This document shows, piece after piece, positions 651-45,800 of a stretch of DNA of 64,000 bases; the stretch's first letter is position 1, and every line of letters starts with the position of its first letter. Below the pieces are notes generated by a model that saw nothing but the letters and a program-made list of their open reading frames with translations, did no database searches and was not told where the DNA came from. The stretch spans positions 19,090,481-19,154,480 of the forward strand of contig OX424561.1 of assembly GCA_949152475.1 (NCBI GenBank). The letters run 5' to 3'. The stretch comes from Terebella lapidaria. Its lineage: Eukaryota; Annelida; Polychaeta; Terebellida; Terebellidae. The position numbers and the translations under genes are program-made.

Positions 651-1745
651 TATCTATGACTACCCACCTGTGTCAGGCCCTGGTTTCCATGACCACCCAA
701 CTGTGTTAGGCCCAGGTATCCATGACTATCCACCTGTGTCAGGCCCTGGTTTCCATGACTACCCAACTGTGTCAGGCCCAGGTATCCATGACTACCCACC
801 TGTGTCAGGCCCAGGTATCCATGACTACCCACCTGTGTCAGGCCCTGGTTTCCATGACTACCCAACTGGGTCAGGCCCAGGTATCCATGACTACCCAACT
901 GTGTCAGGCCCAGGTATCCTTGACTACCCACCTGTGTCAGGCCCAGGTATCCATGACTACCCACCTGTGTCAGGCCCAGGTATCCATGACTACCCACCAG
1001 TGTCAGGCCCAGGTATCCATGACTACCCACCTGTGTCAGGCCCAGGTATCCATGACTACCCACCTTTGTCAGGCCCAGGTATCCATGACTACCCTCCTAT
1101 GTCAGGCCCATGTATCCATGACTACCTGGTACCCACCTGTGTCAGGCCCAGGTATCCATGACTACTCACCTGTGTCAGGCCCTGGTTTCCATGACTACCC
1201 ACCTGTGTCAGGCCAAGGTATCCATGACTACCCACTTGTGTCAGGCCCAGGTATCCATGACTACCCACCTGTGTCAGGCCCAGGTATCCATGACTACCCA
1301 CCTGTGTCAGGCCCAGGTATCCATGACTACCCACCTGTGTCAGGCCCAGGTATCCATGACTACCCACCTGTGTCAGGCCCAGGTATCCATGACTACCCAC
1401 CTGTCAGGCCCAGGTATCCATGACTACCCACTTGTGTCAGGCCCAGGTATCCATGACTACCCACCTATGTCAGGCCCATGTATCCATGACTACCTGGTAC
1501 CCACCTGTGTCAGGCCCAGGTATCCATGACTACTCACCTGTGTCAGGCCCTGGTTTCCATGACTACCCACCTGTATCAGGCCCAGGTATCCATGACTACC
1601 CACTTGTGTCAGGCCCAGGTATCCATGACTACCCACCTGTGTCAGGCCCAGTTATCCATGACCACATGTACCCATATCCATGACTACCCACTTTTGTCCG
1701 GCCCAGGTATCCATGACTACCCACCTGTGTCAGGCCCAGGTATCG
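651..1745 (-). repeat. 33-bp minisatellite of the HIF-alpha exon 3 splice donor
   Basis: About 33 tandem copies of a 33-bp unit. On the gene strand each unit reads GGATACCTGGGCCTGACACAG, then GTGGGTAGTCAT. The left half equals the end of exon 3 and the right half equals the start of intron 3. About twenty units keep an intact CAG|GTGGGT or CAG|GTGAGT. Variants change the donor (CAGTTGGG, CAAGTGGG, CTGGTGGG). A block containing an irregular tacctggtaccc unit occurs twice (about 1120-1200 and 1485-1570), which shows higher-order duplication. Frame is open for 11 codons per unit but is broken by irregular units. Confidence 0.95.
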
Positions 1746-1879
1746 GGACACACTGTCTGCCAGGTACACTATGTCTCCCTCCTGGGACAGGATGATGAGG
1801 AAGCCCTCAAGTGCCTTCGAGTACTGAGCATCCAGCTTCTTCTGGATACTCTCACTGTAGTCGGTATTTGTAGCTACTT
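1725..1879 (-). CDS. HIF1A: HIF-alpha exon 3, start of PAS-A
   Basis: A 155-bp exon with acceptor TTTGCAG at 1886-1880. Its core reads [19 protein letters not shown], then [15 protein letters not shown], matching vertebrate PAS-A (LKALDGF, GDMIY, NKYMGLTQ). The donor CAG|GTGGGTAG is at 1727-1719. The last 20 exon bases and first 13 intron bases are the seed of the 33-bp tandem array that follows at once, so many further donors lie downstream. The next exon, expected to begin near FELTGHS, is not in the window. Confidence 0.88.
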
Positions 1880-4800
1880 CTGCAAACAGAAAGCATGCAA
1901 ATTGTTTCATTGTGTTTGACATGACGTTTTATCATCTCCCAAAAATTTGAAACACCCTCTCCAAAGACTCAGACAACTTTGAGACACCTAAAAGTCCTGC
2001 ACATGTATCCACCATCCCCTATTCTGACCATTTCGAGACACCCATTCCAATGCTCTGACCAATCTGAGATGCCCCCTCCCCAAGGATCAAGATTCCAACT
2101 TCAAGATGACCACTGCTCTCTCAACAGTAGTACAGCATAAAACAAGGATTAAACTCCCTGCCCCCTCCCCCCCTCGCCATCCAAGACTCTTCCAACTTCA
2201 GAACGTACCCTCCCAAAGCTCTCCCAACTTCAAGACACCCCCTCACCTGCGCCAAGCAGCTTGCGGAGCCTGAGGTGACTGATGGCGAGCCTCATGATCG
2301 AGGCCTTGTCCTGTTGGAGGGTCTGTGACATGGGCAGGGGCAGGAGGCTGGCCAGGTCCGAGAACACCTCCGACTCCTTGTTCCGACGACATCGTGCTGC
2401 GTCACGAGACTTCTCCTTACGTTTCTCTGAATTTCTGAAAAGACACAAATAAATAATGTTGTTCAAACGTATTCACAATATAATCCATGTCAAACTTTGT
2501 CTGAATCATCCTGATCACAGCATGTAATACCCCAGTTACAGTAGTGAGTTATCAGGAGTTAGTAAAATACAAAAACATTTAAATACATGTACACTGTATA
2601 ACGACTAAAAAGATTGTAGATTGTACACTACTAGTCTCCAGGTATCTTGGGTATACACGTAAGGGACCAACAGTCACCTTGTGAGGTGTAAATAAGGTGT
2701 CTTGTTAGTTGCCTGTTACATGTATGTATTAGTATACACTCATGTACCGGGTATGTAAGTATGTATATATACAAGTATATAGCAGAGCTATCATAATTCA
2801 GTGTGGCAGTTGATGGCGATATCTACATGTATTCCTTTGTAAATACATGTAGTCTTTCCATTGTAAATTCAACTTATTTTTTTCACATTTTTTATCATTA
2901 CATGTGAGGTTTTGAGCGCTGGGCTGTCAGCGCTGTCACTCCGGTTGGGGTAAGTATAGACTCGGGACAGGATGCGAACAACCATAGCAATTTACTGCAC
3001 CATCAGCAGCACTTTAATCATACCAATTAGTCAACAAAGCTGAGAAAAATAACCTAAAAATACGACATTCGTGGGAGAACAAATTTATAATCAGCACGAT
3101 AAGCAGGATAACCATGATAACAATTCCTATCAAATGGTCATTTCATATCTATACTTTTGTACATGTATGATACAATGTCATTAGAAGGTCTCTTCATGTG
3201 TGTGTAAAGATGGAAAATTACCAGTAATAGTGGTGAAAAATCATAGCATCAGAAATACATTAGACCAGAAATACATCTCTCTCGTCATGTACTTCTGATT
3301 AGACCAAACTTCTTACTGGTATGTATTTTTGATCATGCATGTACATTCATTATGTCAATAATTACAATTATTACAAATACTATACATGTAATCTAAAGTC
3401 AGCTGTCTGCACTCATCTCTTAAAATTTGATGTCACAGATTTACATGTACACGTACACCTATTTGCTACCAGCATCTGTAAAATATCACTCCTGACCCGA
3501 TGAAGGATCACCACGTGACAACTATTAAACCACTGCAATTAGATTTATAGCTATTTTAACACAAATTTTTAGATCCTGTTTGCAATCTGTCTGTAGATTC
3601 TTATTTACTGGTTTACATACTGCCTATTATTATGCTTTTCTGCATGATGGCTTCACTTAGGACTGTTCTTGACTAAAGTTCTAACACCTCTGCCCCCCTC
3701 CCCCCCTCCTACCCCCTTCCCCTTGATCAATCTATTTACAACAACTATTTTTGTTGTATATTACAATATATATTTATTGTACTTCCACATTTATGAACAT
3801 CGGCATGCATGTCATGACTGCAAAAGAAACCGAAAGAAATATAATTTTCCTGGTGTTCTTGAAGTCCCCTTATGGCAAACCATGCAGACACACAAACACA
3901 TACTAGTATATTGAGAGATAGTTATTTTGGAAATCTCTACATTATTTTTATCTGCACAATTTTATCTGCACAATGAACCTCGACTCGAGAGGTAATTTCT
4001 TTCACCAACTATTTTATAAGCATATAGATCTATCGCATACATGTCTGAACTTTGTTCCCGTTGTTGCAGTTCGGATAAATCTATGTATTGTGTTTGGGAG
4101 ATTTTTATCAGCATACTTTTACGGGGGAACTTATCAACCCCTTTGGAGCTAGTATTGGACAAAGATCCAGAAAGAAGCTTACATGTATATTTTAACGAAC
4201 TGATACATTCCAAAGTTGCACAACATTGTACCATTATCAGGAATTACACATAATAACCCCGGGTCTCAACAGAGACATGGTTGATGAACATGAAGAAAGA
4301 ATCTAGCCACAATCATCTACCATGAAGATTTTAATGATAAACATCATCAATGCGGAAATTATCTCGATGGCACATCAACCAGTGTGTACTTGAATAATTA
4401 TGTTGGAAAACTGCTGAATATTTTGTAATACTTGCAAGTAACAAATTATAAAATTGACAAATTATATGTGATTATATAACAGTAGTATATACATTGTACG
4501 TGTTCTTTATTTTTTACCACAATAAATTTTACTAGTATGAATCTTTTAATTCACCACACATAATAATTATTCACATAATGTTTCATCATCTCATAGAATC
4601 TAATAAATAATTTTTTTCTTACCTGTAAGGCATCTTGAATGTTTCTTTCTACAGTCAGCAAGAATATTTTGTATTTTTCAACACAAAACGAATAATTCCG
4701 TGAATATATTATGATATACAAATGAACAGCTCAAGAAACATGAGAAAGAGTAACTCTCGCAGTCCATCTAATTCAGTCTATAAACAGATTGATATATATA

Positions 4801-23792: not shown

Positions 23793-26700
23793 TCATCTGA
23801 TATCAGACTCTCTGTTGAGACAAGCCATCAAGAGTTCTATTTTGTTGATGAAATTCTTTCCCTCCATTTTGTCGAGGTGTACTTCGTTGAATGGACCGCC
23901 AATGTGGGCCCACTTAGGATCAGTTACAAGACTGCCTGGTGCATCCAGTGCCGACAGACCACGAGGCTTCTGCAGGCAAACACGAATCCCACTCGCAGGA
24001 CCACTCTTGACCGACAACACTCTGCAAACATAAAGACTCTATTCAGAAGCTGTTCGATTACACAACACTTATTATGAAGAACATTCGGCAAATAATCCTC
24101 AAACTTCATAGGGAATTTAGGGATCAACATATACTATAGGTATCACTCAATGTTAGTCTAATCAGTGAACTCAGTGAGTTGACCATGTTGGCCTGTTCTT
24201 GGAAGTTTTACTGTAGTTACCTGTCTCCACTTGGTGAAGTGACCATGATGGCCTGTTCAAAGAGATTTTACTGTAGTTACCTTTCTCCACTTGGTGAAGT
24301 GACCATGATGGCCTGTTCTAGGAGGTTTTACTGTAGTACCTGTCTTCACTTGGGTGAATGACCATGATGGCCTGTTCTAGGTGGTTTTACTGTAGTTACC
24401 TGTCTCCACTTGGGGAAGTGACCATGATGGCCTGTTCTAGGAGGTTTTACTGTAGTTACCTGTCTCCACTTGGTGAAGTGACCTTGATAGCCTGTTCTAG
24501 GTTTTGCTGTAGTTACCTGTCTCCACTTGGTGAAGTGACCATGACGGCCTGTTCTAGGAGGTTTTACTGTAGTTACCTCTCTCCACTTGGTTAAGTGACC
24601 ATGATGGCTTATCCTATGAGGTTTTGCTGTAGTTACCTCTCTCCACTTGGTTAAGTGACCATGCTGGCTTATCCTAGGAGGTTTTACTGTAGTTACCTGT
24701 CTCCACTTGGTGAAGTGACCATGATGGCCTGAGCAGTACCAATGGACTCCATCTCTCCCACCCCAACATAGCTCTGTGAAGTTAGTGACAGACTTGTCCA
24801 GCCCATTATCTTGGACAGGTGCTGCACTGTGTTAATGTGGTGTTGTGCAACCTACAAAAGACAATCAGAAATCACATACAAATACAAAGAATTGTGCCTT
24901 TCCTGTTGTGATACTTCCCCGGATCAATGAACTATTGCAATATTGCAATCACAAGAAAATTGGTATTGCAGATGAAATCATCATGTGAATAATTGTGAAT
25001 AATTCAATTTTCCGAACCTGGCCGAGAGTGAAGTCTTTGAGTTCCTGTTTCTCCCATGACATATCAATGACTCGTCCATCCTTGCACACAACCTTCATAC
25101 AGTCCACGTATATGTGCAGTGTGAATGAAGTCCTGCGAAATGGTAGATCATAGTACTACTCAGACAAGACCGTCATGCTTTCTTTACACAAAAGATAGAA
25201 TTGAAACATTTACACACACAACATGATGTATAAATCATTTGCACACCTGACATTCTCGTAGCCTGTGGAGGTGATGTTCACTTTGACCATTGCCTCAACA
25301 GCTGAGCTTAGGCTGCTCCAGTGAGCGGCAATCTGAGGATCCTGAACCAACTGAGCCAGCTCGTCCAGTACCATGATAGCCCTGTATATACAACACAGGC
25401 AAAGTCTATTGCGTAGTTCACATCATACAGTTCCATCTAATCATCCCATAGTACGCACACAATAAACCACAGATTTCAACACGTGTTGTACTGACCTGCG
25501 TCGTAGAACAATATGTCTGGCTTGCTTGATAATCTGTTCCAACAAGGTTTCCCTGGAAGTTACATAATTGCAATATTATTCACCTAAAGCAGTTGCTTCC
25601 ACATTTCTCAAGAAACACCAGTTGGGAAAAGTAAAGCATGTACTATAGTACATCTGAGTGGACTACAAGACTCACTGTTGGCCGAGCTCCAGTAGTTCAC
25701 TGCCTGTGAAGGCCTGCGGTCCGGCCAGGCGACGTCGCTTGCTCATGCCCAGCAGAGCCGTCACGGGGTGCGGCATTGTGTGGTATGAGTTGTTGTAGTG
25801 AACCTGAGTCAGCAGCTGGTGCAGCGAGTGTTCCAGGACATAGTTCTGGTCGGGCTTGGGAGGCTGCATTGGGAGCTGTTGGGAGCGAGTGATGTACATA
25901 AAGGATAATCTTCATAAACTCATAAACCAAGGAAACTCAAATTTGGCAACATTTTGCTTGTATTTTATTCAAGTTAGGTTTTGAAGGTTATTGGATAATG
26001 CTTGGGCTGTTACCATGGTTACCTCACCTTTTTGTCCTTATTATTTGAATGCCTCAATGCGATACTCAGCTGAACACCAGGGAATAACTGAAACACAGCA
26101 TCCGACAATTAAAAATATATTTTGCATACTCATCTAACATACATGTGCCAATATTTTCAAATCAAGATTGGCAAATTGGATAATCCATATGATATATGGA
26201 CCCAATTTGCAGCTACATGTATGTAATACAGCTATGTAATATACCATACCTATATTTTCTTCAGTGACATTACTTACATGTGATAGGATATGGTTGCCAA
26301 CAACTATATGAGGAAGGGGAGATTTTGACTGAACGGCTTCCTTTGCAAGCTGGAACATACATTATTAGCCTAAAAAATCACAGACAGGTTGAACACACTT
26401 CAACACAATTCAATAAGTTTACTGCAAGCTAGTAGTTGGAAGACTGACACGACGACGTGGTTGGAACTGACCTGAGCAAAAATCTCCTTGCAGAAGAGAA
26501 CATTCTGAGCACTCTCGAGACGCTTGTACCACGGAGCCTCTGGCGGGAGAGTGCCGGGCGGCGAGTGCAGCTCCAGGTCAGCGCTCGCCAGGGTCGTGTC
26601 ATCTGTACAGTATTAGAAGGAATGTCAGCCTCGTGTTCTATAGGGGGCTGGAGGGTGGTCTTCAACACTAAGAGCCACATTTAGGTATCATATATCAATA

Positions 26701-29700
26701 GCATACTATTATCAGTCTTGTCATTTAATTGCCATTTAGAAGTGAGTCATGTTGTAAGTGCACATTATCTAACCTGCAAGTTTTTTGATGGAGACCTGGA
26801 TGTAAGCCACACCCTCGAGGTCACTAGGTATGGTGACTTGTAGTGCACTCTTTTGACTGGGATGTGGAGTGGGGGAGCTGGTCGTGGCTTCTTTGGACTC
26901 AATCTCACTCTTAGTTACCTCAAATGTACCACTTTGCCAGAACCTCGACCCAGCTGACAAATCATCAGATACATTCATTGTTTGTTTTCCATCATCATCA
27001 GTTAAAAATCATGTTTAACTTTGATCAAATCCCATCTCAGCTGAAGTACATTAGCATATATATATATCATTAATATGTTAAATCAATTGCAGATGAAAAG
27101 TCATTCAAATGTGCATATAGATATTGAGATAGTCCAGCGTTTGAGCCACACTGACCAGACTTGTAGCTCAAGTCGCCCAATATGTTGCTGCCGACTTTTT
27201 TCAGTCGCCACCGTTGTCTTAGTTTGAGAAGGTCATAGTGAAAATCTGGGTTGGTGCGCTTTGAGGCTTGGTCCTGAGACTTTCTAAGTCGCTCACTGCC
27301 AGCACTCAGTATTGCTGCTGCTGATCCCAGGGCCTGGAAATTACATGTAATTTACCAGTACATACAGAATCGCTGTACTGCTCACCTACTTACTTGTAGC
27401 ATTCTTCGTCTCTCTAATCCTATCGCTCTAGAACTACATTTGCATAAGTGTATATTGATATGTTGAATCAATTGCAGATAAAAGGTGTTTCAAATCATTT
27501 GTACTAAAATTTATTATTTCACTGCTGCTTCTGCAGAGTGCACAATACTATACTCGGATTTTTCTAACTCGTTTACACTGTTTTTCGCTAATATTTTTGT
27601 GATGCTAAATGCTATCGTTCTATAACTTGGCATACTTCACCTGGGAGTCAAACGGCAATTCTCTACAAAATTTAACATAGCTATCACGAAAATTGAAGAA
27701 GTTGGCAATCTACCCCAATGTTAAATTTAGCCCTATTATTTAATTTCTGGGCCCGCACACAATTTTGTGCATTTGCTCGGTTTTGTAGCGGAGCAATGTT
27801 TCAAAATCAACATGTTTGTGTAGAATACACCCAGTGTATCTCCTGGTTCAAAGTTACAAGAATATTTCGAATCCTGATGGATGTAAACAGGACAAATTCC
27901 TCGAATATGCTCAGATTCTCGAGATCCCGTTTTGGGCTGAAATTTAACATTGAGGTAGATTGCCAACTTTTTCAATTTTCACGATAGCTGTCTGAAATTT
28001 GGTGGAAAATTGCCGTTTGCCTCCCAGGTGAAGTATGCCAAGTTATGGAACGATATCATTTAGCATCACAAAAATATTAGCGAAAAACAGTGTAAGCGAG
28101 TTAGAAAAATCCGAGTATAAATAATGTACATGATGTATGTGAATAGTGCCAGACCAGCTGAAACTAGACATAAAAGCCTATAGGCTTTGTGGCATCCCCC
28201 AATTTGTTCTTATCATTTCAAATGGTCATACTGGACTGAGAAAAGGATACATAGGCCATTGTATGTGGGTAAGAGTGAGAGCTCATCAGACAGTTTCTTA
28301 CCAGAACTGCTTTCTACCATCTTGACAACTTGGCCCACCAGACATTTGCCACCCAAAATGACTGGACAATTGCCCAGCCAATATTCAGAGTACTACCCAG
28401 CCAATATTCAGAGTACTAGTATATTTAATCAGGATGTTCGTGATATTTTTCAGGTGCTCCTGTCAAATGTAAAATGATACGTAATGCTGTGTCATCTTGG
28501 CCAATTTTGTGATTCCAAAACTGGTACAAACAGTGGAATATTCGCATTCACATTATAACCAAAGCCAAACATTCCCCAGCTAACTAAAAAATTAGCCCAA
28601 AGGCTAAGATAGGTTACCGGACAATTTTGGTTTGGCCATGGCAGCATTGGCAGGTAACAGACCTTGAGATTTACCAATCAAGGTTCGCAGTGTAAACATA
28701 TGACCTTGGGATTTACCAATCAAGGTCATCCGTATGAACTTCGATGTAACCATTACATGTATGTGTGCGGCATTTGATATTCTATATGTTGGGTGGAATC
28801 ATTTAGGCCGCTCAGGTCAATTTACACATTCCAAGTCAGACATTTGGCACTCAAGGTCATCTGACGTCAAGTTCAAGGTCATCATTAGTTGTGCCATATA
28901 TGTCTTCCTATATGTTCATAATGCAAACAGGAGCTCTATCTGCAAGCATTTCATCTACAAAGGCAAATCTGGGCATTTTTTGACCCCAAAATGGCTGTTT
29001 TGACCTTTCAAGGTCATCCAAGGTCAAATTCAAGGTCACCACACAAATCGCCATATATGACTTCCGATTTGAAAGTGCCAATTTCTAAGCTCTATCTTCA
29101 AGCGTTCTATGAGTACAGTCCTGACAGCTCCCATTATGAAGGAAAAAAGTGGCGAAAATTTTCTAAGTCCAAAATTTTTTTCAAAGGGTGAAAATTTTTT
29201 TTTGCCTAGAAATGGCCCAAAATGGATAGTAATGTTATTTGGGGCGAAAAATTTTTTTTTCGCCGACTCGTCAAAAATTCAAAATGGCCGCCACACTGAG
29301 ATCGGCGATTCAAGGGCAACAAAACTTATACACGTCGCAGAGGTATATAAGAGGAATCTTTTTAAGCAAAAATCTCAAAACTGATCAGAGAGTTTTTGAG
29401 AAAATACAGACCAGGTGCAAATTTGAGCGTTTTTCGACCCAAAAATGGCTGTTTTGACCTTTCAAGGTCATCCAAGGTCAAATTCAAGGTCACCACACAA
29501 GTCGCCATATATGACTTCCCATTTGAAAGTGCCAATTTCTAAGCTCTATCTTCAAGCGTTCTATGAGTACAGTCCGGACAGCTCCCATTATGAAGGGAAA
29601 AAGTGCCGAAAATTTTCTAAGTCCAAAATTTTTTTCAAAGGGTGAAAAATTTTTTTTGCTCTAGAAATGGCCCAAAATGGATAGTAATGCGATCTGGGGC

Positions 29701-32700
29701 GAAAATTTTTTTTTTCGCCGACCCACCAAAAATTCAAAATGGCCGCCACACGAAAACCGGCAGATTTAGGGCAACCAAACTTATACATATCACAGAGGTA
29801 TATGAGGGGAATCTTTTGGAACCAAAAACTCAAAACTGATCAGACAGTTTTTGAGAAAATGGCCGTCAAAGTCCAAAATTGAGCGTTTTTCGACAAAAAC
29901 GGCCGCCATTTTGAAAAAAATGCGAAAATCAAAAAACAAAAAAATACCTCCTTCTCAAAATATTTTTAGGCATTTTTGTGCAAAATTTCAGAAAGATTCG
30001 ATCGTTAACTTTAAAGATAAAAATGTTAACGCCGGACGGACGGACGGACGGACGGCTAGGCTCACGTCCGATACCTTGTGGGACTTTTACGTTGTGGGTT
30101 TTTTTGTACGGTACATTGTGTGGCTTTCAAAAAAGTTCGCACGTTTGATACCATGTGTGTTTATTTGTCCATGTCATTGTGGGACTATGTCCAACTCGCT
30201 GTGGGTTTAATAAATTGTCTCAGAAATAATAAGTTATGGATAAGATACAGTGGGGTCCAAAAGACTTTGACCACATTGAGTGTGTCATAATAACTAGCGT
30301 ACAATAGAAGACAGTGTTTATTACATGCGGACTCTAAAGCTAAATCCTCTGCTCATATTTATAGACATGTATCTCAAATTGATACCAGAAGGTTTATTTC
30401 GGTAAAATCAACAAATTTTACCAACAAAATTAGATAAATAAGGAAATGTGACATATTTATTATATGTCACCAACTCATCCTAAACTTGTGAAACACATTA
30501 AGATAAGAGGTTGCAATGAAACTGATATTGACCAACACACAATCACCAACCACATTGCACCCCAATCCTGTTATTTTTCGCATTCCATCAATTTTCCTAA
30601 GCAAATTTAAAAACATTCAAATTTAGAGTTTTTACCCAAAAAAATATTTTAATGTTGCACAATCAAACTTTCTGAATATCTGATGTTATTTGTGTTTACA
30701 TACATGAGAGTGACTGAAAGAACAAATAACAGACAACTTAGATTAAATAAATTATATTTTAATGATAGGTTTTAGAAAAGGTGATATTATCAGGTTGGTC
30801 TAAGACTAAAGGACCCCACTGTATGCATTTTGCTGGTCACTCAATGACTAAACTTTTACTATTATTGCTGTATATTTACAGAAGAAATTCAAGGGAACAG
30901 GCCTGACAGACAATCTCTACATTTATAAGCACATATATTCTACATAAATCTAACAACTTTTACTGCACACCCTTCATATGCTCAAATATTGATTAGAAAA
31001 ATACAATGCTGAGTTCATAGAGCAATATTTATTCAAAAAGCTGCTCAACAGATATCCCAGTTATGACCAACAATAGCTTAGTGAACAGCACTGTTCAGCA
31101 TCATACAAAGTTTATTCAACGGATCATCAACTCAACATTTTGATTGCTTCCAGCGAGTAACAATATTTGAATAATCTACATTATACAACATGCCACTTAT
31201 CTACATTATACAACATGCCAAAAACAAAACTTTGTACAGTCAGTTTGATACTTTGTGAATAAATAACAAAAGAGTCACCTCATTTCATATCTCAAGGTTT
31301 TTTGTTAAATCTTTTCAATTTCTGCGACATCTACTTCGGTCCACTTTGCACGGCTCATTGGCTTTTTCAGTTTTGCTCTTGTTAACTCAGGGTAGTTGCC
31401 AGAAAAGGTCAGATGACGCTCAGATCCAGGATGTTAACGTATTGATGTCCGGGCAGTACTCGGATCCAGGTTAGTGTAAGTGGGAGCACTGCTAGGATCT
31501 AGCCTGTCTGGAAAAAAACATAGATAACATTTATTTTCTTAGAAAATAATCCAATACATGTATATGATTCGGCTGATATTCTATTCTGTACAGTATCAGA
31601 AATATTATTATACTAACTGCAATTTAGATATGTACCTTCCATTGTGATTCCACTCAATTACCAGTAACCAGTTATTTTCAATGCATTCATAACATTTCGT
31701 GGCTTAAATGTTAAATGCACAACAAATTGTCTGACAAGAATAACTCTGTATACAATCATAAACCAATCAAAAGGAGGCTCAATTTATGCAATATTTATGG
31801 CTGACAATACAAACCTGTGATATCTGCGTATTGTAATTCACTTTGGTGCTGTTTAATCTTGTGAGCAATGTCTTTCAAGCATTCATGGCTCCTCATGGAT
31901 CCATCTCCTAAAAGAACAAGAATGTATTAATATTTAACCACAGTCAAATTACTTCCCTACTAGCATCAATGCAAACCCGCAGACACAAGTTTGGACACAC
32001 AACCACAATCAATACATAGTTTTAAACGGTTACGACAAAAAAAAAAATTACTGACAATCAAAGTAGATTTGCGTCAATGGAACACATGAATTAGGAGCCA
32101 AAAATCAATGTACCTCTTGTACCTGAGGTGCAAAACCCGTATTTGTTACTGTTCCAAATTCCTGCTCTTGTTGTGGTGTCAGGATCCGACAAGAATCACA
32201 AGACATCCTGGGTGTAGCTTAATAGTAAACCGATACTGGTCAACTCCTCTGAAAGACACAAATGCAAAATGCAACTAATGAATAAAGTGATAATTATGTC
32301 CTAAATGTTTGACTGAAATGTTTTCTTATTCATGTCTGCGATATCATAGTAGAGTGTTTACAGGAGGTCAGTATAAAATGAGGTCAGTATTCTTCACAGT
32401 CCATTTGCTATTTTCACGTAATTATAAGAACCAAATCGATTGCAGTTTTGTTGTTCATCCATTTACTTGTATCAGGTTTCTCAGTCTTCGTGTATTAAAC
32501 TTTACATAAATCTATTGGGCCTAATAGAAGCATGTGCCCTTACACGGCCCTAATAGAATAGCGCCCTGCCCCCCCCCCCCCCCTCCTGAAAAAAAACTGT
32601 AATGTTTTCAGCTTTATAACTACCCTTGTATCCTCATAACAATGGTCTTATAATGTTTTATCTAGGCTATTTTGTCAGCAAATTAACACATAACAAACAC

Positions 32701-35700
32701 TATATTATATATGATATCAATAATTAAATTATTAATTAAAGATGTGCACTATTAAATGTTGAGTCTTGCATTGGAGCACCGCTCTTCCATTGGGACTAAT
32801 AAGATAACATAAAATCATAGATTTACAGGATGAAGCTCATGCAGCTGAGACATTCTGTCTATGCATTTAACTAGTCCTGCAGCCGCTCTGTCTGTGCCTA
32901 TTGCACAAAGACCGTAGGTCTAACCGAGTTGAAAATGTAAAAATTACATAAGTGGCCGTAACTTTCAGTACTACTCAACATAGTGACTTGTGAGTTTAAG
33001 AATAATATAGGTGCATTGGATAGCTTGTTAAAGATCATGTCCAGGATGATCTGCTAAAAGAACTGTAAAAATGTTGCCGATGTGAGAAATGTCATGAACT
33101 TTATTTCGGGGTGATACAATGATAATAATACTTACGGCATTATATCAGACCGCACGAAGTTTTGAACAAAATGCCCCATTCATCCTCCATCTCACGGACC
33201 TGTGCAGGCAATGGGAGAGGCCATTTCTTCCATTTTATGTACACAAACATCCTGGAAATGAAATAAATGATCATTGGTATAATCTAAAACAGACAATTCT
33301 CAGTCATAGCATATATTTGTTATGTGCACATTTACCACCATAAATTTTACATGTCAGCCACTTTGTGTTCTACTTTGGGGTTCTCTCTGCCAAATTTTAT
33401 ATCCAAACACACCATACCATGTCATGAATACCTATGTCGTACCAAAACCTCCTTCAACCTTGTGTAAAATATCTGCCTGAAATTCTGTGTGCCTTTATCC
33501 TGTTTATTATCCATACATAAACAACACTTCTTCCCGAAGGTATTTGTATAATATCTTCGGGAAGAAGTGTTGTGGATGATCAGTCAATACAACAGTCAAT
33601 ATTTGTTCTATTAAATATTTTATTTTTATTTTGTTTGAATGTCTGCAAACTTATAGGTTTCTCAGCAAATTCATTTCTGCGAAACTACGGTGCTCAAAAA
33701 GCTAAACATGCACTTATATAGCAACTATTTCCGAACTGTTGTAACATATTTCATGATTTTCCCACGTGACAAATTCTGTCAGACGAATCAGCTCGGAATT
33801 TACCTAAACATAACAAATTTCTCTGTTTAACAAGAATTTTTTCCTGCCAATACCTGTGAGTCTTTTCAGTTAAAAAGTTTGTGTGGCTTTATTGTCCATA
33901 CTTCTGTGTTTATTCCAACAACATGTCTCTACTATTCCCTACCAAGACTTATGTGTCTTTTCAGTCCAAATTTGTGTGGCTTTATTGTCCATGCTTCTGT
34001 GTTTATTCTAAAAACATGTCTCTACTATTCCCTACCAAGACGTGCGTGTCTTTTCAGTCCAAAGTTTGTGTGGCTTTATTGTCCATACTTCTGTGTTTAT
34101 TCTAACAACATGTCTCTACTATTCCCTACCAAGACGTGTGTCTTTTCAGTCCAAAGTTTGTGTGGCTTTATTGTCCATACTTCTGTGTTTATTCTAACAA
34201 CATGTCTCTACTATTCCCTGCCAAGATTTGTGTGTCTTTTCAGTCCAAAGGTTGTGTGGCTTTATTGTCCATACTTCTGTGTTTATTCTGACAACATGTC
34301 TCTACTATTCCCTGCCAAGACTTGTGTGTCTTTTCAGTCCAAAGTTTGTGTGGCTTTATTGTCCATACTTCTGTGTTTTTATTCTAACAACATGTCTCTA
34401 CTTTTCCCTACCAAGACTTGTCTGCTTTTCAGTCCAAAGTTTGTGTGGCTTTATTGTCCATACTTCTGTGTTTATTCTGACAACATGTCTCTACTATTCC
34501 CTACCAAGACTTGTGTGTCTTTTCAGTCCAAAGTTTGTGTGGCTTTATTGTCCATGCTTCTGTGTTTATTCTAACAACATGTCTCTACTTTTCCCTACCA
34601 AGACTTGTCTGCTTTTCAGTCCAAAGTTTGTGTGGCTTTATTGTCCATACTTCTGTGTATATTCTAACATGTCTCTACTTTTCCCTACCAAGACTTGTGT
34701 GTCTTTTCAGTCCAAAGTTTGTGTGGCTTTATTGTCCATACTTCTGTGTTTATTCTGACAACATGTCTCTACTTTTCCCTACCAAGACTTGTCTGCTTTT
34801 CAGTCCAAAGTTTGTGTGGCTTTATTGTCCATACTTCTGTGTTTATTCTAACATGTCTCTACTTTTCCCTACCAAGAGTTGTGTGTCTTTTCAGTCCAAA
34901 GTTTGTGTGGCTTTATTGTCCATACTTCTGTGTTTATTCTGACAACATGTCTCTACTTTTCCCTACCAAGATTTGTCTGCTTTTCAGTCCAAAATTTGTG
35001 TGGCTTTATTGTCCATACTTGTGTGTTTATTCCAACAACATGTCTCTACTATTCCCTGCCAAGACTTGTGTGTCTTTTCAGTCCAAAGTTTGTGTGGCTT
35101 TATTGTCCATACTTCTGTGTTTATTCTGACAACATGTATCTACTTTTCCCTGCCAAGACTTGTGTGTCTTTTCAGTCCAAAGTTTGTGTGGCTTCATTGT
35201 CCATACTTCTGTGTTTATTCTGACAACATGTCTCTACTTTTCCCTGCCAAGACTTGTCTGCTTTTCAGTCCAAAGTTTGTGTGGCTTCATTGTCCATACT
35301 TCTGTTTATTCTGACAACATGTCTCTACTTTTCCCTGCCAAGACTTGTGTGTCTTTTCAGTCCAAAGTTTGTGTGGCTTCATTGTCCATACTTCTGTGTT
35401 TATTCTGACAACATGTCTCTACCTTTCCCTGCCAAGACTTGTCTGCTTTTCAGTCCAAAGTTTGTGTGGCTTCATTGTCCATACTTCTGTGTTTATTCTG
35501 ACAACATGTCTCTACTTTTCCCTGCCAAGACTTGTGTGTCTTTTCAGTCCAAAGTTTGTGTGGCTTTATTGTCCATACTTCTGTGTTTATTCTGACAACA
35601 TGTCTCTACTTTTCCCTGCCAAGACTTGTGTGTCTTTTCAGTCCAAAGTTTGTGTGGCTTTATTGTCCAAACTTCTGTGTTTATTCTGACAACATGTCTC

Positions 35701-36778
35701 TACTTTTCCCTGCCAAGACTTGTGTGTCTTTTCAGTCCAAAGTTTGTGTGGCTTTATTGTCCATACTTCTGTGTTTATTCTGACAACATGTCTCTACTTT
35801 TCCCTGCCAAGACTTGTGTCTTTTCAGTCCAAAGTTTGTGTGGCTTCATTGTCCATACTTCTGTGTTTATTCTGACAACATGTCTCTACTTTCCCTGCCA
35901 AGACTTGTGTGTCTTTTCTGTCCAAAATTTGTGTGGCTTTATTGTCCATATTTCTGTGTTTATTTCAACACGTCCATGTTCTTGTGTTATTCTCAAGATC
36001 AGTTCAACTATATTTTCCCAAACCTCTGTGTTTAATTGATCCACCGTGGGTTATTGTGAATGCCTACCTGAATTGCATGCTGAATTCGGCCTTGTTTTAC
36101 CCAATATTTGTGAGTTTAATCAGTTAATCTGTTCATCACTTATGTGTTTTTAATGTCCATGTTTATGTGTTTCAGTTTACCTAAATAAAAAATCATGCTC
36201 AATGAAGCTCTTGATAGCCTCATAACAATGATTTTCCTTTAATATCATGTGCATCTATGCAACTTCTAAAACAAATTCACACTCTAGATCTACTGAACTC
36301 GATTTAGGAAAACGTTCAGCTTTTGGGTGCAGCAAAACACCACATTATCGCCCACTGTGACTTGCAACTATAAGGGTCTTCGTTTACATTACCAAGTCAT
36401 ATTTTACTAATTCGACAAATCTAATTGATATGCATCTCCTTCAATTTACTGTGCATTGCTAGACCAGACATACAGCATAAATTATTTCGTAGAGTGGCGG
36501 TCGAGACCCTGTGAACAGCCGAAACACGAAAGTCCCACAAGAAGAATGTCTGACACCGCCACTCCCGTTTTCTATTCTGATTTCTTCTGTAAATCTGTAT
36601 TCTCACCAGCTGCGATTTACGCAATGTATGTGAGATACAAGAAACACGTCTGGTGACACCACGACTGAGATATATCGATCTCCTGCCGGGTGTGCACTTT
36701 TCGCACCCCTGTATAAATACACAAAGACAATAGTTCCCATGTTCGAATTATTTTGCAGTCATTCGCTAGGTGACAGCA

Positions 36779-36843
<65 letters not shown>

Positions 36844-39800
36844 ATATAAAAAATAGTTGTTTATTTACATCTTGACAACGGCAACAGTCTAGACGCGCAC
36901 GAATATACGGACTATTTTTTATGTCAACACAATGGCGACAATATTGTAAAATTTGATTGTTTTGTTGGAATATTGCTTGTATTATAGTGTTTTTCGTTAA
37001 CCCCAAACTGACTTATGGTGAGAAAGAGAATCTTATGTCTTGTTTTGATGAGATGGAGAAATCTCAGACTCGTCATCAGCTGTCCAGGCTCGCCTAAAGG
37101 CTCGCCATGGACCACGCTGAAGACTCGTCTGAGATTTCTCCATCTCATCAAAACAAGACATAAGATTCTCTTAATCGGTGTTACTTTCACGTTGGAATTT
37201 CCATCGAGTTTGGTATGTTGCAGAGATACGTACAGAAAACAACGAATATACAAGTTAAAACAAGGTAAAAACAAATCTTTTTCCTTCTGATCCTTACCTC
37301 AAATTTTCGTCTGACGCCATTTTGGATGACGAAAATGCGCATGCGCACGCAACCCGGAATCAGAAAGAGACCAAAAGTATTGCACAATGTGCACCATACT
37401 CTATGATCGTCATGATGCACCCATATAAGGCATGTATTTTTTTCATGCAGTGATGTCCATACTTGGACAAAAATTCACGTGATGGACATTGGACAAAACA
37501 TTGTGCGACTTCACAGGAAACGAACGAGAAACACACAAAGCATCATTTGGCGAATTTTTGGAGGATGCCTTGTGTGGCTAGTCCCACAGTACGAAAAAGA
37601 CACACAATGACCTATTGGGCGGAAATTAAAACACACAAGGTATCAGACGTGCGAACGGACGGACGGACGGACGGACGGACGACGGACGCAACGCCATGCC
37701 AATAGGTTATCAGACCAAAGGTCCGGTAACCTAACAATGATGATTTGGTCATTGCATGTGAAATAGAGTTGAATAACAAAACATTCAAACAATACATGTT
37801 TGTACAATATAAATGCAGACAGGGCAAATCATCCCCCAAGCATGTTGTGTCATGTGTGTTGGCTTATTAACCAACTATTGTATCCTGTGGGGTGGAACTT
37901 CTTTCTTTTACCATGTACACACACTAGTAAACCAGGCTTTGGAGGGGGGAGTGAGGGATTATGCATGGATATGAGCCTGGGGTCAAGTTGGACATGCTAG
38001 CTGTATCACTTGTCAGGCATGACTGAGCAGGGCTGGCTGAGAGGGCGGAGCCTATTGCTGTGCTGGACAGACTGGCTGATCTTGTAAGGCATGACTGAGC
38101 AGGGCTGGCTGAGAGGGGCGGAGCCTATCGCTGTGCTGGACAGAGTGGCTGATCTTGTAAGGCATTACTGAGCTCTCATATACTGCACTGGCTGAGAGGG
38201 CAGAGCCCAGCCTCATGCTGGACATGCAGGCTGCAGTCAGTGAATACAGTAGCATGGCTCAGTCACAGTATTACATCTGCATGGGGGCAGGCGAGGGAAA
38301 AATATAAGTCCAAAAAAAAAAAATGCGAAAATCAAAAAACTAAAAAATACCTCCTTCTTGAATTATTTTTAAGTATTTTTGTGCAAAATTTCAGATATAT
38401 TCGCCTGTAAACAAAAAAGAAATTAGCCCAAAGGCTAAGATAGGTTACCGGACAATTTTGGTTTGGCCATGGCAGCATTGGCAGGTAACAGACCTTGAGA
38501 TTTACCAATCAAGGTTCGCAGTGTAAACATATGACCTTGGGATTTACCAATCAAGGTCATCCGTATGAACTTCGATGTAACCATTACATGTATGTGTGCG
38601 GCATTTGATATTCTATATGTTGGGTGGAATCGTTTAGGCCGCTCAGGTCAATTTACACATTCCAAGTCAGACATTTGGCACTCAAGGTCATCTGACGTCA
38701 AGTTCAAGGTCATCATTAGTTGTGCCATATATGTCTTCCTATATGTTCATAATGCAAACATGAGCTCTATCTGCAAGCATTTCATCTATAAGGGCAAATC
38801 TGGGCATTTTTTGACCCCAAAATGGCTGTTTTGACCTTTCAAGGTCATCCAAGGTCAAATTCAAGGTCACCACACAAGTCGCCATATATGACTTCCCATT
38901 TGAAAGTGCCAATTTCTAAGCTCTATCTTCAAGCGTTCTATGAGTGCAGTCCTGACAGCTCCCATTATGAAGGAAAAAAGTGCCGAAAATTTTCCAAGTC
39001 CAAAATTTTTTTCAAAGGGTGAAAATTTTTTTTTGCCTAGAAATGGCCCAAAATGGATAGTAATGTTATTTGGGGCGAAAAAAATTTTTTTCGCCGACTC
39101 GTCAAAAATTCAAAATGGCCGCCACACTGAGATCGGCGATTCAAGGGCAACAAAACTTATACACGTCACAGAGGTATATAAGAGGAATCTTTTTAAGCAA
39201 AAATCTCAAAACTGATCAGAGAGTTTTTGAGAAAATACAGACCAGGTGCAAATTTGAGCGTTTTTCGACCCAAAAATGGCTGTTTTGACCTTTCAAGGTC
39301 ATCCAAGGTCAAATTCAAGGTCACCACACAAGTCGCCATATATGACTTCCCATTTGAAAGTGCCAATTTCTAAGCTCTATCTTCAAGCGTTCTATGAGTA
39401 CAGTCCGGACAGCTCCCATTATGAAGGGAAAAAGTGCCGAAAATTTTCTAAGTCCAAAATTTTTTTCAAAGGGTGAAAATTTTTTTTTGCTCTAGAAATG
39501 GCCCAAAATGGATAGTAATGCGATCTGGGGCGAAAAAAATTTTTTTCGCCGACCCGCCAAAAATTCAAAATGGCCGCCACACGGAAACCGGCAGATTTAG
39601 GGCAACCAAACTTATACATATCACAGAGGTATATGAGGGGAATCTTTTGAAACCAAAAACTCAAAACTGATCAGACAGTTTTTGAGAAAATGGCCGTCAA
39701 AGTCCAAAATTGAGCGTTTTTCGAGAAAAACGGCCGTCATTTTGAAAAAAATGCGAAAATCAAAAAACAAAAAAATACCTCCTTCTCAAAATATTTTTAG

Positions 39801-42800
39801 GCATTTTTGTGCAAAATTTCAGAAAGATTCGATCGTTAACTTTAAAGATAAAAATGTTAACGCCGGACGGACGGACGGACGGACGGGTGAACGGATGGGC
39901 GTTACGGGCGGACCCAATGTTAAATTTCCTATCTTAACTTTCCCCATAAGTCCTGAAAAAATCCCCATAAGACCGCACTTTTGGCTTAAACTGTGGTTGT
40001 GGGGCGTTTTCAGCTTTATTCCCCCTAAGAAATCCCCAAAACTCCGTTCCGTTTGCCCGGACGGACGGACGGACGGACGGACGGACGGACGGACGGACGG
40101 ACGGACGACGGACGCAACGCCATGCCAATAGGTTATCGGACCAAAGGTCCGGTAACCTAATAAAAATGTGGACGACGACGACGACGGACGACGGACGCAA
40201 CGCCATGCCAATAGGTTATCGGACCATAGGTCCGGTAACCTAAAAATTAGCCCAAGGGCTAAGATAGGTTACCGGACAATTTTGGTTTCAAGCATTGTAG
40301 GTGACATAATGTTTTGAGATTTACCAGTCAAGGTCATCTTTGTGAATCTCAATGTCACCATCAGGTATGCTGCATATGACTTCGTATGTTCATAATACAG
40401 AAGGCCGGAATTGAGCTCCGTTTCGCTCTACGACTCACCGTTTCCGAGATACGACCAAACAGGAAGTGCCGAGTCGGCAAAAAAAAAGTTTTATCAACAA
40501 GTATTTCGTGTGTAGAGGCCAATTTCAGATTTTGAGATTCGCCCTTCAAGGTCTTTAAGGTCAAGTTCAAGGTCACCAAAACATGTGCCATTTATACATG
40601 ACTCTTTTACAGGCTTATACACAATCCTAACCTGTATGTGCAAAAGTTTATGCTTCAGCGGCCACTTTCAAGATTTCAAGTCAGACATTTAGCACTCAAG
40701 GTCATCCAAGGTCAAAATCAAGGTCATCATCAGTTGTTTCATATATGACTTCCTATATGTTCATAATGCAAACTGAAGCTCTATCTACATGCATTTCATC
40801 TGTAGAGGCAAATTTGGGCATTTTTTCACCCAAAAATGGCTGTTTTGACCTTTCAAGGTCATCAAAGGTCAAATTCAAGGTCACCTCCCAACTCGCTATA
40901 TATGACTTCCTATTTGAAAATGCCAATATCTAAGCTCTATCTTCAAGCGTACTATGAGTACAGTCCTGGCAGCTCCCATTATGAAGAAAAAAGTGCCGAA
41001 AATTTTCTAAGTCCAAAATTTTTTTCAAAGGGTGAAAAATTTTTTTTTGTCTAGAAATGACCCAAAATGAATAGTAACGCGATTTGGGGCAAACAAAATT
41101 TTTTTCACCGACCCGTCAAAAATTCAAAATGGCCGCCACACGGAGACTGGCGATTCAAGGGCAACAAAACTTATCAACATCATAAATGTACATAAGGGGA
41201 ATATTTTGAAACAATAATCTCAAAACTGATCAGACAGTTTTCGAGAAAAGACAGGCCAGGTGCAAATTTGAGCATTTCTCGACCCAAAAATGGCTGTTTT
41301 GACCTTTCAAGGTCATCCAAGGTCAAATTCAAGGTCACCACACAAGTCGCCATATATGACTTTCCATTTAAAAGTGCCAATATCTAAGCTCTATCTTCAA
41401 GCGTTCTATGAGTACAGTCCCTGCAGCTCTCATTATGAAGGAAAAAAGTGCCGAAAATTTTCCAAGTCCAAAATTTTTTTCAAAGGGTGAAAAAAAATTT
41501 TTTGTCTAGAAATGACCCAAAATGGATAGTAACGCGATTTGGGACAAATAAAAAATTTTTCGCCGACCCGTCAAAAATTCAAAATGGCCGCCACACGGAG
41601 ACCGGCGATTCAAGGGCAACAAAACTTATACACATCATAAAGGTACATAAGGGGAATCTTTAGAAACAAAAATCTCAAAACTGATCAGACAGTTTTTGAG
41701 AAAATGGCCGCCAAAGTCCAAAATTGGCCATTTTTCGTCAAAAATGGCCGCTATTTTGAGAAAAATGCGAAAATCAAAAAAATAAAAAATAACCCCCTCT
41801 TGAAATATTTTTAGGCAACTTTGTGCAAAATTTCAGGAAAATCCGCCTGTAAACTTTAAAGATAAAAATGTGGACGGACGACGGACGACGGACGATGGAC
41901 GGACGACGGACGCAACGTGACGGCAATAGGTTATCGGACCATAGGTCCGGTAACCTAAAAATACACCCAAAAAATTTTTTCCCCCTGGAAATTGCCTGAA
42001 TCAAATTATGACATTGACAGGAATCGCCCGATTTTTTTTTCCAAAATGGCCGCTGGCGGCCATCTTGGATTTCGGATCTCGACGAAAAACAATAGGGGTT
42101 AGGAGCAAAGTATTTCGGATGAGCTGTGAAAATTTCGGAAAGATAGATCAAGGCGTTCAAGAGTTATGATCCGGAAACCAAACGGCGGAAGAAAAAAAAA
42201 AATTAGGCCAAGGGCCAAAGATAGGTTACCGGACAATGTTTAATATTTTAGGTATTAGCCAGGTCACTGGTTGAATTCAAGGTCAAGAGAATATTCAGCA
42301 TATATAACATTAAGCATATATCATGTCCACAGTTGATTGCTAAGCTGTAAGTTCAATAATTAGAGAGAGATTAGCAATTTTATGCTGTAGCCTTGAAAAT
42401 GAAGGGGCAAAGGTCAAATTCAAGGTCATCAAAATATTCAGTGTATATCATTTTCTATATCATGTATATCATGTCCACAATTGATTCCCAAGCCATACAG
42501 TCAATAGAGGAGCAAGATATGAGCCAGTTTGTCCTTGGACCTTAAAAATGAGGTCAGAGGTCAAATTCAAGGTCACGAGAATATTCAGCATATATCATTT
42601 CCTATATGTCCACAATTGATTCCTAAGCTGTAAAATCGATAATAAGTGAGATATTAGCCATTTTGTCCTGTGACCTTGAAAATGAGGTCAAAGGTCAAAT
42701 TCAAGGTCATGACAATAATCTGCATATATCATTTCCTATATGTTCATAATTGATTGCTAAGCTGTAAAGTCGATAACCAGCGAGATATTAGCCATTTTGT

Positions 42801-45800
42801 CCTGTGACCTTGAAAATGAGGTCGAAGGTCAAATTCAAGGTCATCAGAATATTCAGCATATATCATTTCCTATATGTCCACAATTGATTCCTAAGCTGTA
42901 AAGTCGATAATAAGCGAGATATAAGCCATTTTGTGCTCTGACCTTGAAACTGAGGTCAAAGGTCAAATTCAAGGTCACGAGAATATTCAGAATATATCAT
43001 TTCCTATATGTCCACTATTGATTCCTAAGCTGTAGAGTCGATAATAAGCGAGATATAAGCCATTTTGTGCTCTGACCTTGAAAGTGAGGTCAGAGGTCAA
43101 ATTCAAGGTCACGAGAATATTCAGCATATATCATTTCCTATAGGTCCACAATTGACTCCTAGTCTCTAATCTCGATATCAAGTGAGATATTAGGCATAAT
43201 GTGTCCCATTATAAAGCATAGGAGAATTTAACATGGGAAAGTCCCATTTGAGCCGAGTTTGGGCCAAAATGGCCCACTTCGAGCGATTCAAGCGCAACGA
43301 AATTTATAGACATCATAGGAGTACATATGAGGAGTGTTATTTATCAAAAAGAAAAAAAGTTACTGAACAGATTTTGAGAAAATGGCCGCCAAAGTCCAAA
43401 ATCAGGCATTTTTCGTCGAAAACGGCCGCCATTTTGAAAAAAATGCGAAAATCAAAAAACTAAAAAATACCTCCTTCTTGAATTATTTTTAAGTATTTTT
43501 GTGCAAAATTTCAGAAATATTCGCCTGTAAACAAAAAAGATAAAAATGTGGACGACGACGACGACGGACGACGACGGACGCCGACGGACGACGACGGACG
43601 ACGGACGACGGACGCAACGCCATGCCAATAGGTTATCGGACCATAGGTCCGGTAACCTAAAAAAAAAAAAAACAAGCCCTCCATAAGGGGGCCCTGCCCG
43701 ATATTTTCAATCGGGATGCCTAAATATATATACCTTCCTTTTTGCTACTACAAACAGCCCATTTTTTGGTTCATGTTGTTCAGGAGTGACAGGATCCAGA
43801 ACCATGTAACGTTTCTCCTTAGCTATGTTGAGGACATCGAGAAGGACACTCATCTCAGTCAGTGCTGACCTATAGGAAGGGAACAGTATCAACAAAAAAC
43901 ATCATACAGTTATCCGTATATATATGTTACCTACTTTGGTCATCATTGACATATCAAGCATGCTTGAAGCTTTCAGCATGATTAATTGATTATAGCAGTA
44001 CATATACCAAATTTGTAGAAATCTACACAATGGACCATATTACAAGTATTTATTTATATAAACTACAGCTGCATATACCAATATGCTAATTTATTGCCTG
44101 CTAACTACAACACTGTTTGACATGTATTATGTAAACATACTTGAGTTTGTTACGGACACTATCCCATGGCCACAGGGACGGCTGGAAGGGAGCCTCCGAT
44201 TTATCGTCCGATTCATCCTCCTCATTTTCCCCCTCAGATGTTAACTTTCCCTTTTCTGCACTTTCCTCCTTTAGGAAGTCAATCTTATGTGCCAGTTTTG
44301 TCAGGTTCTCTGACATAGACAATGGCCTGCAAACCGAAAGAACAAATATAAGTTTTGTTCAGTGTTAGAATGGTAATTGATAAAAGGATATATGATTCAT
44401 ACAAGAACTCATTCTGTGTGCCTTGGACTGTAAAAATTTTCAGTCAGTTTTATGTCACTCATGTATACAAGTAATTATACCACACTTGTATGTCAATTCG
44501 CTTTTTGAATGTTTGTCACAGGCTCTATGCAAAAATATATTTTTGTGATAGAAATATGGACTTTGGTATAAAATTGCTATTTGGCTAACAGGTGAAGTAT
44601 GACAAGTTATAACACAAAACCATTTAGCATTGCAAATAACTGTGTAAAGATTTAGAAAAATCAGAGTATACATAATTTAAATCATGTTTTATATTGTACA
44701 ATTTTGTCACTGATTGTATGAATGATGTGTATGTATGTGAACCTAAATAAATGAAACAAAAATACTAACTTTGACACAATAAGGCTCATCATAATGTAGT
44801 GGGATCTAGATAACGCTGGGGATCTAAATACAACACAATCGGCCGCATCGCTTGGGCTGTAACAAAATAGGCCTCATCATAATGTAGTGGGACGTTGAAG
44901 CCAATGAGGGTATTCTGAATATTACATTCTGGAATAGATTAACATGCGCATTTCAACCAGAATCATCTACCAACCGAACAGAACTGTGAATTCTAGAACT
45001 GTTTTGCTAATTCGAAACACGCATCGTTTCAGTTCATGCACATTTTTCTCCACATTCTGAACACGCTTCAAATATATTAAATTTAGTGAAATTATTATTG
45101 CTAACATGTTCCTGAAAAATTTGATCAATGAACTAACTGTAGTAGCATTTGTGACAATTTTGTGCAGTCTTTAATATAGAAGTGTGAATTTCGTATGTTT
45201 GTATTTTGCAATAGAAATAAAAGTTATACATTGTTGATTTGGGGGAAAAAGTACCATTTTTAAGTTCAACTGTTGGACTCTACGGAGCACATGTACAATT
45301 TAGTGGGCAATCCTGTTTCTCTATGACAATGATGAGTTTATCAGTGGCACAAAATGATAAGTAAAGATAAAAAGAACATCTAGTTTGCAATAAAGAACAC
45401 TTTTCTATCATAACCAATTGTCATTCAGGATCCTAAGTATGGGAAATTAGTTGGTAATGAAATTGCCCACGTTATTGTACATCCTAGCCGACTCTACTTT
45501 TATATACTGGATTTAAATGAAAAATAAAGTAGCCAGTGGCGAATCTAGTGTCAAAGTTCGATGACTGGCATTTAGAGTAAACCATACAGTTTTCAGACAC
45601 TTAATGTGAAATCTCAATAATGACTGTAGCGAAATATGCTAGATGATTTATTTTACATGTACCGGCATATGCTCGTAAATGTGGTAAAAGTTATAAAGTC
45701 GTATGGAAATATTATATTGTCCAGACTTCGATATTGGTGAATTACGAACTGTGAGTTCAAATGACAGTAATCGGACATCCCAGACAGAAATCGGACACCT

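Follow-up and report, generated by a model that had tools for sequence, protein, structure and literature searches.

The closest described precedent for the arrays reported here is the human gene 6-16/IFI6, which likewise contains a minisatellite with multiple splice donors. Its repeat unit is 12 bp long and its later units give in-frame isoforms, whereas the two arrays described below, which lie in other genes and within ~23 kb of each other, have units of 33 and 60 bp, and all but one of their later donors would break the protein. In the title of a 1995 report, Turri and colleagues reportedly described the 6-16 minisatellite as providing multiple splice donor sites. Another study states that two downstream repeat units of human IFI6 serve as donors (PMC4526556).

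In the Rogers model, introns are gained by tandem duplication of AGGT segments, with ATP2A1/2 and fission yeast SPOG_01682 as described cases (PMC4974935). As in those cases, short tandem duplications have multiplied AG/GT signals here (the slash marks the exon-intron boundary); in contrast to them, an existing junction has been duplicated together with intronic bases, and the acceptor of the MED17 intron does not come from the array. At DOK7 intron 4, where two donors compete, SRSF1 is reported to be able to shift the choice towards the intron-proximal one (PMC5585400). The likeness to that case is that near-neighbour donors would compete and that a wrong choice costs a frameshift, but there are two competing sites in DOK7 and 27 (HIF-alpha) and 8 (MED17) donor-like sites here.

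Beyond IFI6, we recognized no similar splice-donor array in the literature, judged mostly from listings, and a search for literature on molluscan HIF found nothing. The available portions of work on earthworm metallothionein describe intronic minisatellites and no donor multiplication, and those of papers on DDX3Y, a prawn lectin, hTERT and repeat RNA describe no such array. The kind of array is already known; what is new is the presence of two separate, coding-disruptive arrays, one of them at a Mediator subunit, in a single 64-kb window of the annelid Terebella lapidaria (the window being the whole stretch of DNA that was analysed).

Results

A HIF-alpha gene on the minus strand

The 5' part of a HIF-alpha gene lies on the minus strand of the window. 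Exon 2 (2247–2434, minus strand), placed by translation, Pfam (PF23171) and tblastn with a human HIF1A sequence, encodes a HIF-type bHLH domain (bHLH_HIF1A, E 9.9e-23; 80.6 bits against a cut-off of 27) and is followed by a donor GT at 2246. Exon 3 (1725–1879, minus strand; 155 nt), placed by translation, PDB match and tblastn, encodes the start of PAS-A and ends ...YLGLTQ at a codon boundary (phase 0), with the GT at 1724. This first, exon-adjacent donor, CAG/GTGGGT (1723–1724, minus strand), follows from translation, the split of the array into units and donor scoring.

The identification of the gene as HIF-alpha in the earlier note is borne out by the Pfam match and by comparison of the joined product of exons 2 and 3 with the PDB, in which the best match is EPAS1 (E 3.4e-33). 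The top matches are EPAS1, HIF1A and HIF3A, with nearly the whole query aligned, and the printed alignments, all to EPAS1, extend through the terminal GLTQ of exon 3. NPAS1/3 match the bHLH part only and ARNT is far weaker; by sequence comparison, the predicted PAS-A start aligns to HIF-alpha rather than to NPAS or ARNT. A Pfam search of the short stretch of exons 2 and 3 returned no PAS family at E 0.001. Exon 4 lies outside the window: in tblastn with the N-terminal stretch of human HIF1A, only matches of E at least 0.28 were obtained past residue 124. The downstream exons that would encode the oxygen-dependent degradation domain, with its LxxLAP proline, likewise lie beyond the window, and exon 1 was not found within it.

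A tandem array at the exon 3 donor

The HIF-alpha array (655–1744, minus strand) consists of 33 tandem units that multiply the exon 3 donor, and a decayed partial unit continues to ~640. It was delimited by TRF, which reports a 33-bp array of 30.6 copies at 640–1662 and further rows that reach 1744, by matching of the exonic 20-mer, and by splitting into units after each GTCATG (or GTCAAG/GTCATA). The regular unit of 33 bp comprises the last 20 bases of exon 3 and the first 13 bases of the intron. The earlier note had described an array of about 33 copies with exactly this composition, and both statements hold: counting from 1744 to 655 gives 33 units, and unit 1 has the 20 exonic and 13 intronic bases. 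Twenty-nine units are 33 bp long, one is 22 bp, two are 40 bp and one is 31 bp.

Twenty-one distinct sequences occur among the 33 units, and unit 1 has exactly the sequence of the commonest type, which accounts for 8 of the 33 (unit 1 counted). Units 7–8 are repeated exactly as units 18–19, 368 bp apart, and the units next to the two pairs on the intron side are similar too. With at most 3 mismatches allowed, the 20 bases that end exon 3 occur 32 times in the window, the exon itself counted; in 100 shuffles the mean was 0.01 matches and the largest count 1. An exact strong donor, CAG/GTGGGT or CAG/GTGAGT, is present in 19 units (17 with CAGGTGGGT and 2 with CAGGTGAGT), in line with the roughly twenty good donors noticed before. 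The stronger CAG/GTGAGT is carried by unit 7 (1525–1557, minus strand) and, in the same form, by unit 18 (1189–1157), as located by the unit split. In this respect the array resembles the 6-16/IFI6 kind, with 5' splice sites borne by units repeated in tandem at the end of an exon.

The two GTGAGT units (1525–1557 and 1157–1189) differ from the consensus at three bases, and their predicted hairpin is weaker (−5.7 against −11.1 kcal/mol).

Predicted products of the later HIF-alpha donors

Donors were scored with a human 5' splice-site matrix, with cut-offs of 6 bits for HIF-alpha and 5 bits for MED17. The scoring, which the earlier note had suggested, did yield a long series of 27 HIF-alpha sites of at least 6 bits, the exon-adjacent one included, but only the first two of these, at 1724 and 1691, give an open, in-frame product. 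The site at 1691 is a weak AAA/GTGGGT with a predicted U1 pairing of −4.6 kcal/mol, against −11.1 kcal/mol for the first donor, and its use would insert 11 codons (VGSHGYLGRTK). The third site, at 1636, gives an open product that is one base out of frame, since the irregular unit 3 (1657–1678, minus strand; from the unit split and donor scoring) is 22 bp long and shifts the frame of any extension past it. From unit 5 on, all 24 sites of at least 6 bits place a stop inside the extended exon, and a frameshift or internal stop results from 25 of the 27 sites. The earlier proposal that each unit would add 11 codons in frame thus applies to donor 1691 only, and the tunable in-frame effect built on it is mostly wrong.

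Past the weak site at 1691, use of a later donor would truncate the product or send the message to decay. A series of in-frame HIF-alpha isoforms was accordingly rejected on frame and stops, and so was a reading of the whole array as a coding repeat, in which the exon 3 frame hits a stop just past the donor of the fourth unit. By the human matrix, 16 later sites equal the first donor (9.5 bits) and two are stronger (12.0 bits). The predicted U1 pairing at the 19 exact donors is −11.1 or −11.9 kcal/mol.

A second array at MED17

A second donor-multiplying array within the same window, at MED17, is a new observation. Exons of MED17 were placed by tblastn with a human MED17 sequence from ~50.2 kb down to 23.8 kb. 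The penultimate exon (24697–24851, minus strand; 155 nt), supported by an exon-joined peptide match and donor scoring, ends ...SPSGD plus 2 bases, and the coding part of the last exon (23793–24021, minus strand), placed by tblastn and translation, runs to a TGA. The array (24180–24731, minus strand; TRF and unit analysis) has 9 full units and a partial tenth, and its 60-bp unit comprises the last 35 bases of the penultimate exon and the first 25 bases of the intron. It fills 517 of the 675 intronic bases (intron 24696–24022), and the acceptor AG (24023–24022) lies outside it, ~157 nt beyond its end.

The peptide joined from the first donor matches MED17 in solved Mediator structures with E 1.8e-19, and the junction is aligned without a gap (SPSGD-R-VLSV against SPSGD-Y-AISV). 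Eight sites score at least 5 bits, and all seven after the first meet a TAA one residue past the junction. A product that is both in frame and stop-free would thus come from 1 of the 26 later HIF-alpha sites and from 0 of the 7 later MED17 sites. The MED17 array is, like that of HIF-alpha, a junction array with unit-borne 5' splice sites (8 sites over 9 full units). The two are of unrelated sequence: at E 0.05 neither unit has a match in the window beyond the array that it belongs to, and since there is no cross-match between them the two arrays look independent. Pfam searches of the three minus-strand frames of 20–30 kb found no family at E 0.01, though MED17 exons lie there, and neither did searches of the three plus-strand frames of 30–40 kb at the same threshold.

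The introns of MED17 hold other repeats. In the long intron between 43.7 and 27.3 kb there is a 94-bp array of ~23 copies (33838–35964), which on the plus strand has acceptor-like TTTTCAG motifs, with no exon seen in its 300-base flanks. Two direct copies of a 1471-bp stretch (28586–30055 and 38416–39886; 98.5% identity) in the same intron are perhaps a young dispersed element, and four ORFs that overlap or adjoin them gave no Pfam match. An AGGTCA-rich 134-bp array of 5.5 copies (42456–43197) lies in a MED17 intron ~540 bases past the donor at 43733.

Variation and folding of the units

If the extra HIF-alpha donors were preserved by selection, the sequence gives no sign of it: the donor columns are the more variable ones. 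Among 29 of the 33 units of the HIF-alpha array, the only array counted in this way and with the four irregular units dropped, deviations from the consensus occur in 17 of 261 cells (6.5%) in the nine donor columns and in 21 of 696 cells (3.0%) in the other 24 columns; several changes are common to units and may be single events, so that the cell counts overstate the contrast. With all circular nine-column stretches ranked from least to most variable, the donor stretch is 29th of 33 (tied with two others). The extra donors thus look unpreserved, and we take the variation as evidence against preservation rather than for selected decay.

An RNA hairpin that hides the HIF-alpha donor was considered and rejected. 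The donor is paired in the predicted fold of the unit (−11.1 kcal/mol), yet 30 of 200 shuffles match this value (z −1.0), as do 6.3% of the 586 33-mers of similar G+C taken from the window. RNA folding of the MED17 unit against shuffles (z 0.22) and DNA folding of the units (z −0.54 to 0.40, four strands) showed nothing notable. In predicted accessibility, the first HIF-alpha donor ranks 14th of 27 and is not singled out, and the first MED17 donor ranks second among 8. The CAG/GTGGGT sites have low predicted accessibility (0.0001 to 0.006; regional median 0.0021).

Donors and arrays across the window

Fifteen donors were placed in the window, 13 in MED17 and 2 in HIF-alpha. A segment of the last 40 exonic and first 20 intronic bases at each of them was searched against the entire minus strand. 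No second copy turned up at E 0.01 for 13 of the 15 segments, and the remaining two are the arrays. The 48-, 94- and 134-bp arrays and two shorter ones, read together with 300-base flanks, show no exon junction (a 455-bp two-copy array was left out). For an estimate of enrichment, arrays of at least 4 copies with a unit of at least 30 bp were taken (n = 5; units of 33, 48, 60, 94 and 134 bp), and TRF rows with shorter units were left out. A donor lies inside the first unit of 2 of these 5 arrays, for which the probability of at least two under uniform placement is 0.0027. The test is post hoc; tblastn matches inspected by eye supplied most of the donors, and HIF exon 1 is missing from the set. 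Once the HIF-alpha array is set aside as the starting point, the probability of a donor in the first unit of one or more of the remaining four is 0.077, which is the fair figure. We regard the enrichment as a lead to preferential seeding at donors, not as proof of it.

Among other searches of the window, ten ORFs matched no Pfam family at 0.1, and Rfam and tRNA scans found none. Exact 35-base and 22-base patterns had 0 occurrences in bacterial/archaeal and viral contig collections, a result that is uninformative on animals.

Discussion

We consider it probable that both arrays are minisatellites seeded at exon-intron junctions and tolerated there, the exon-adjacent copy continuing to work and the rest becoming intron. 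A short tandem duplication across the junction would seed the minisatellite, which would then grow by unequal exchange or slippage. Further copies would fall into the intron and, provided that the first donor wins, be tolerated because the exon-adjacent copy retains an intact exon end and a working donor. Tandem duplication across a donor may in this way be one of the few internal duplications that a gene can absorb. Most HIF-alpha mRNA is expected to come from the first donor, at 1724, because donors beyond the second break the frame or bring a stop. The same kind of event would have occurred separately at MED17, where a product that aligns to known MED17 needs the first donor. In support, the HIF-alpha array begins inside the exon with a unit of the commonest type, 25 of its 27 donor-like sites bring a frameshift or internal stop, its donor columns look unpreserved, and the MED17 layout is the same, with a first donor that ranks high in predicted accessibility. 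From this anatomy, and from the frames and stops of two arrays unrelated in sequence, we infer the mode of growth, the use of the first donor and the near-neutrality of the extra copies.

The later HIF-alpha donors need not be silent. As 16 of them equal and two exceed the first donor in score, and as SRSF1 can favour an intron-proximal site in DOK7, their silence is not guaranteed, and some leak into them is plausible. Nor does predicted accessibility single out the first HIF-alpha donor. It could be that such use is functional, the stop-bearing extensions making splicing unproductive and the array length setting the amount of functional HIF-alpha (and MED17). The stops brought into the extended exon by 24 of 27 HIF-alpha and 7 of 8 MED17 sites, and the 16 later HIF-alpha sites that equal the first donor with two that are stronger, would suit such control; we nevertheless regard it as unlikely, since the HIF-alpha donor columns are not preserved and since the arrangement is shared by MED17, for which, as a Mediator subunit, no reason for control of this sort is apparent. 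Somewhat less likely still, the sites might rarely be cut and instead hold U1 snRNP beside the exon, where it would aid exon definition or protect the intron against premature polyadenylation. The predicted pairing at the 19 exact HIF-alpha donors is consistent with this, but the donor columns vary more than the remaining unit, and the predicted accessibility of the CAG/GTGGGT sites is low, though near the regional median.

That HIF-alpha is made as a graded set of proteins, each unit adding 11 residues within PAS-A, is very improbable. Donor 1691 would add such residues in frame, and human IFI6 transcripts are reported with two downstream repeat units as donors (PMC4526556); against this stand the weak predicted U1 pairing of 1691, the frame shift in unit 3 and the stops from unit 5. 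We give equally little credence to an assembly or expansion artefact, by which the unit number or the array itself would be wrong. Tandem arrays are often mis-sized in assemblies, but the 21 distinct units among 33 argue against an assembler simply duplicating one segment, irregular units are present, and a second array of different sequence has the same design. The poorest candidate, and an extremely improbable one, is intron gain after the Rogers model, with the intron born from copies of an exonic AGGT segment. The CAG/GT of the units supplies both AG and GT, and fission yeasts are described as having multiple 24-bp AGGT duplications that introns span (PMC4974935). However, each unit holds bases from both exon and intron, and the acceptor of the MED17 intron is not part of the array; such an origin does not fit MED17, where GT and AG do not both come from the duplicated segment.

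Junction-seeded, tolerated minisatellites thus remain our preferred explanation, although simple neutrality may not lead one to expect a pair of such arrays in 64 kb, for which the fair chance figure is only 0.077. It is conceivable, if doubtful, that this lineage undergoes recurrent tandem amplification of exon-intron junctions, with minisatellites seeded preferentially at 5' splice sites, either by a mutational bias or because they are tolerated only there. If so, arrays of near-identical donors would be found in many genes, and the spliceosome would reliably pick the exon-adjacent donor in each.

It is an old question how, when similar 5' splice sites lie close together, the spliceosome settles on one of them. 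The two arrays offer a natural series for it, with 27 donor-like sites in HIF-alpha and eight in MED17, of which, by frame, essentially only the first makes a full protein. Two arrays in a 64-kb window suggest that the genome may hold more, and ordinary long-read RNA would test the choice of donor directly. If array length varies among animals, the HIF-alpha array would amount to a dose series made by nature in a gene central to the oxygen response.
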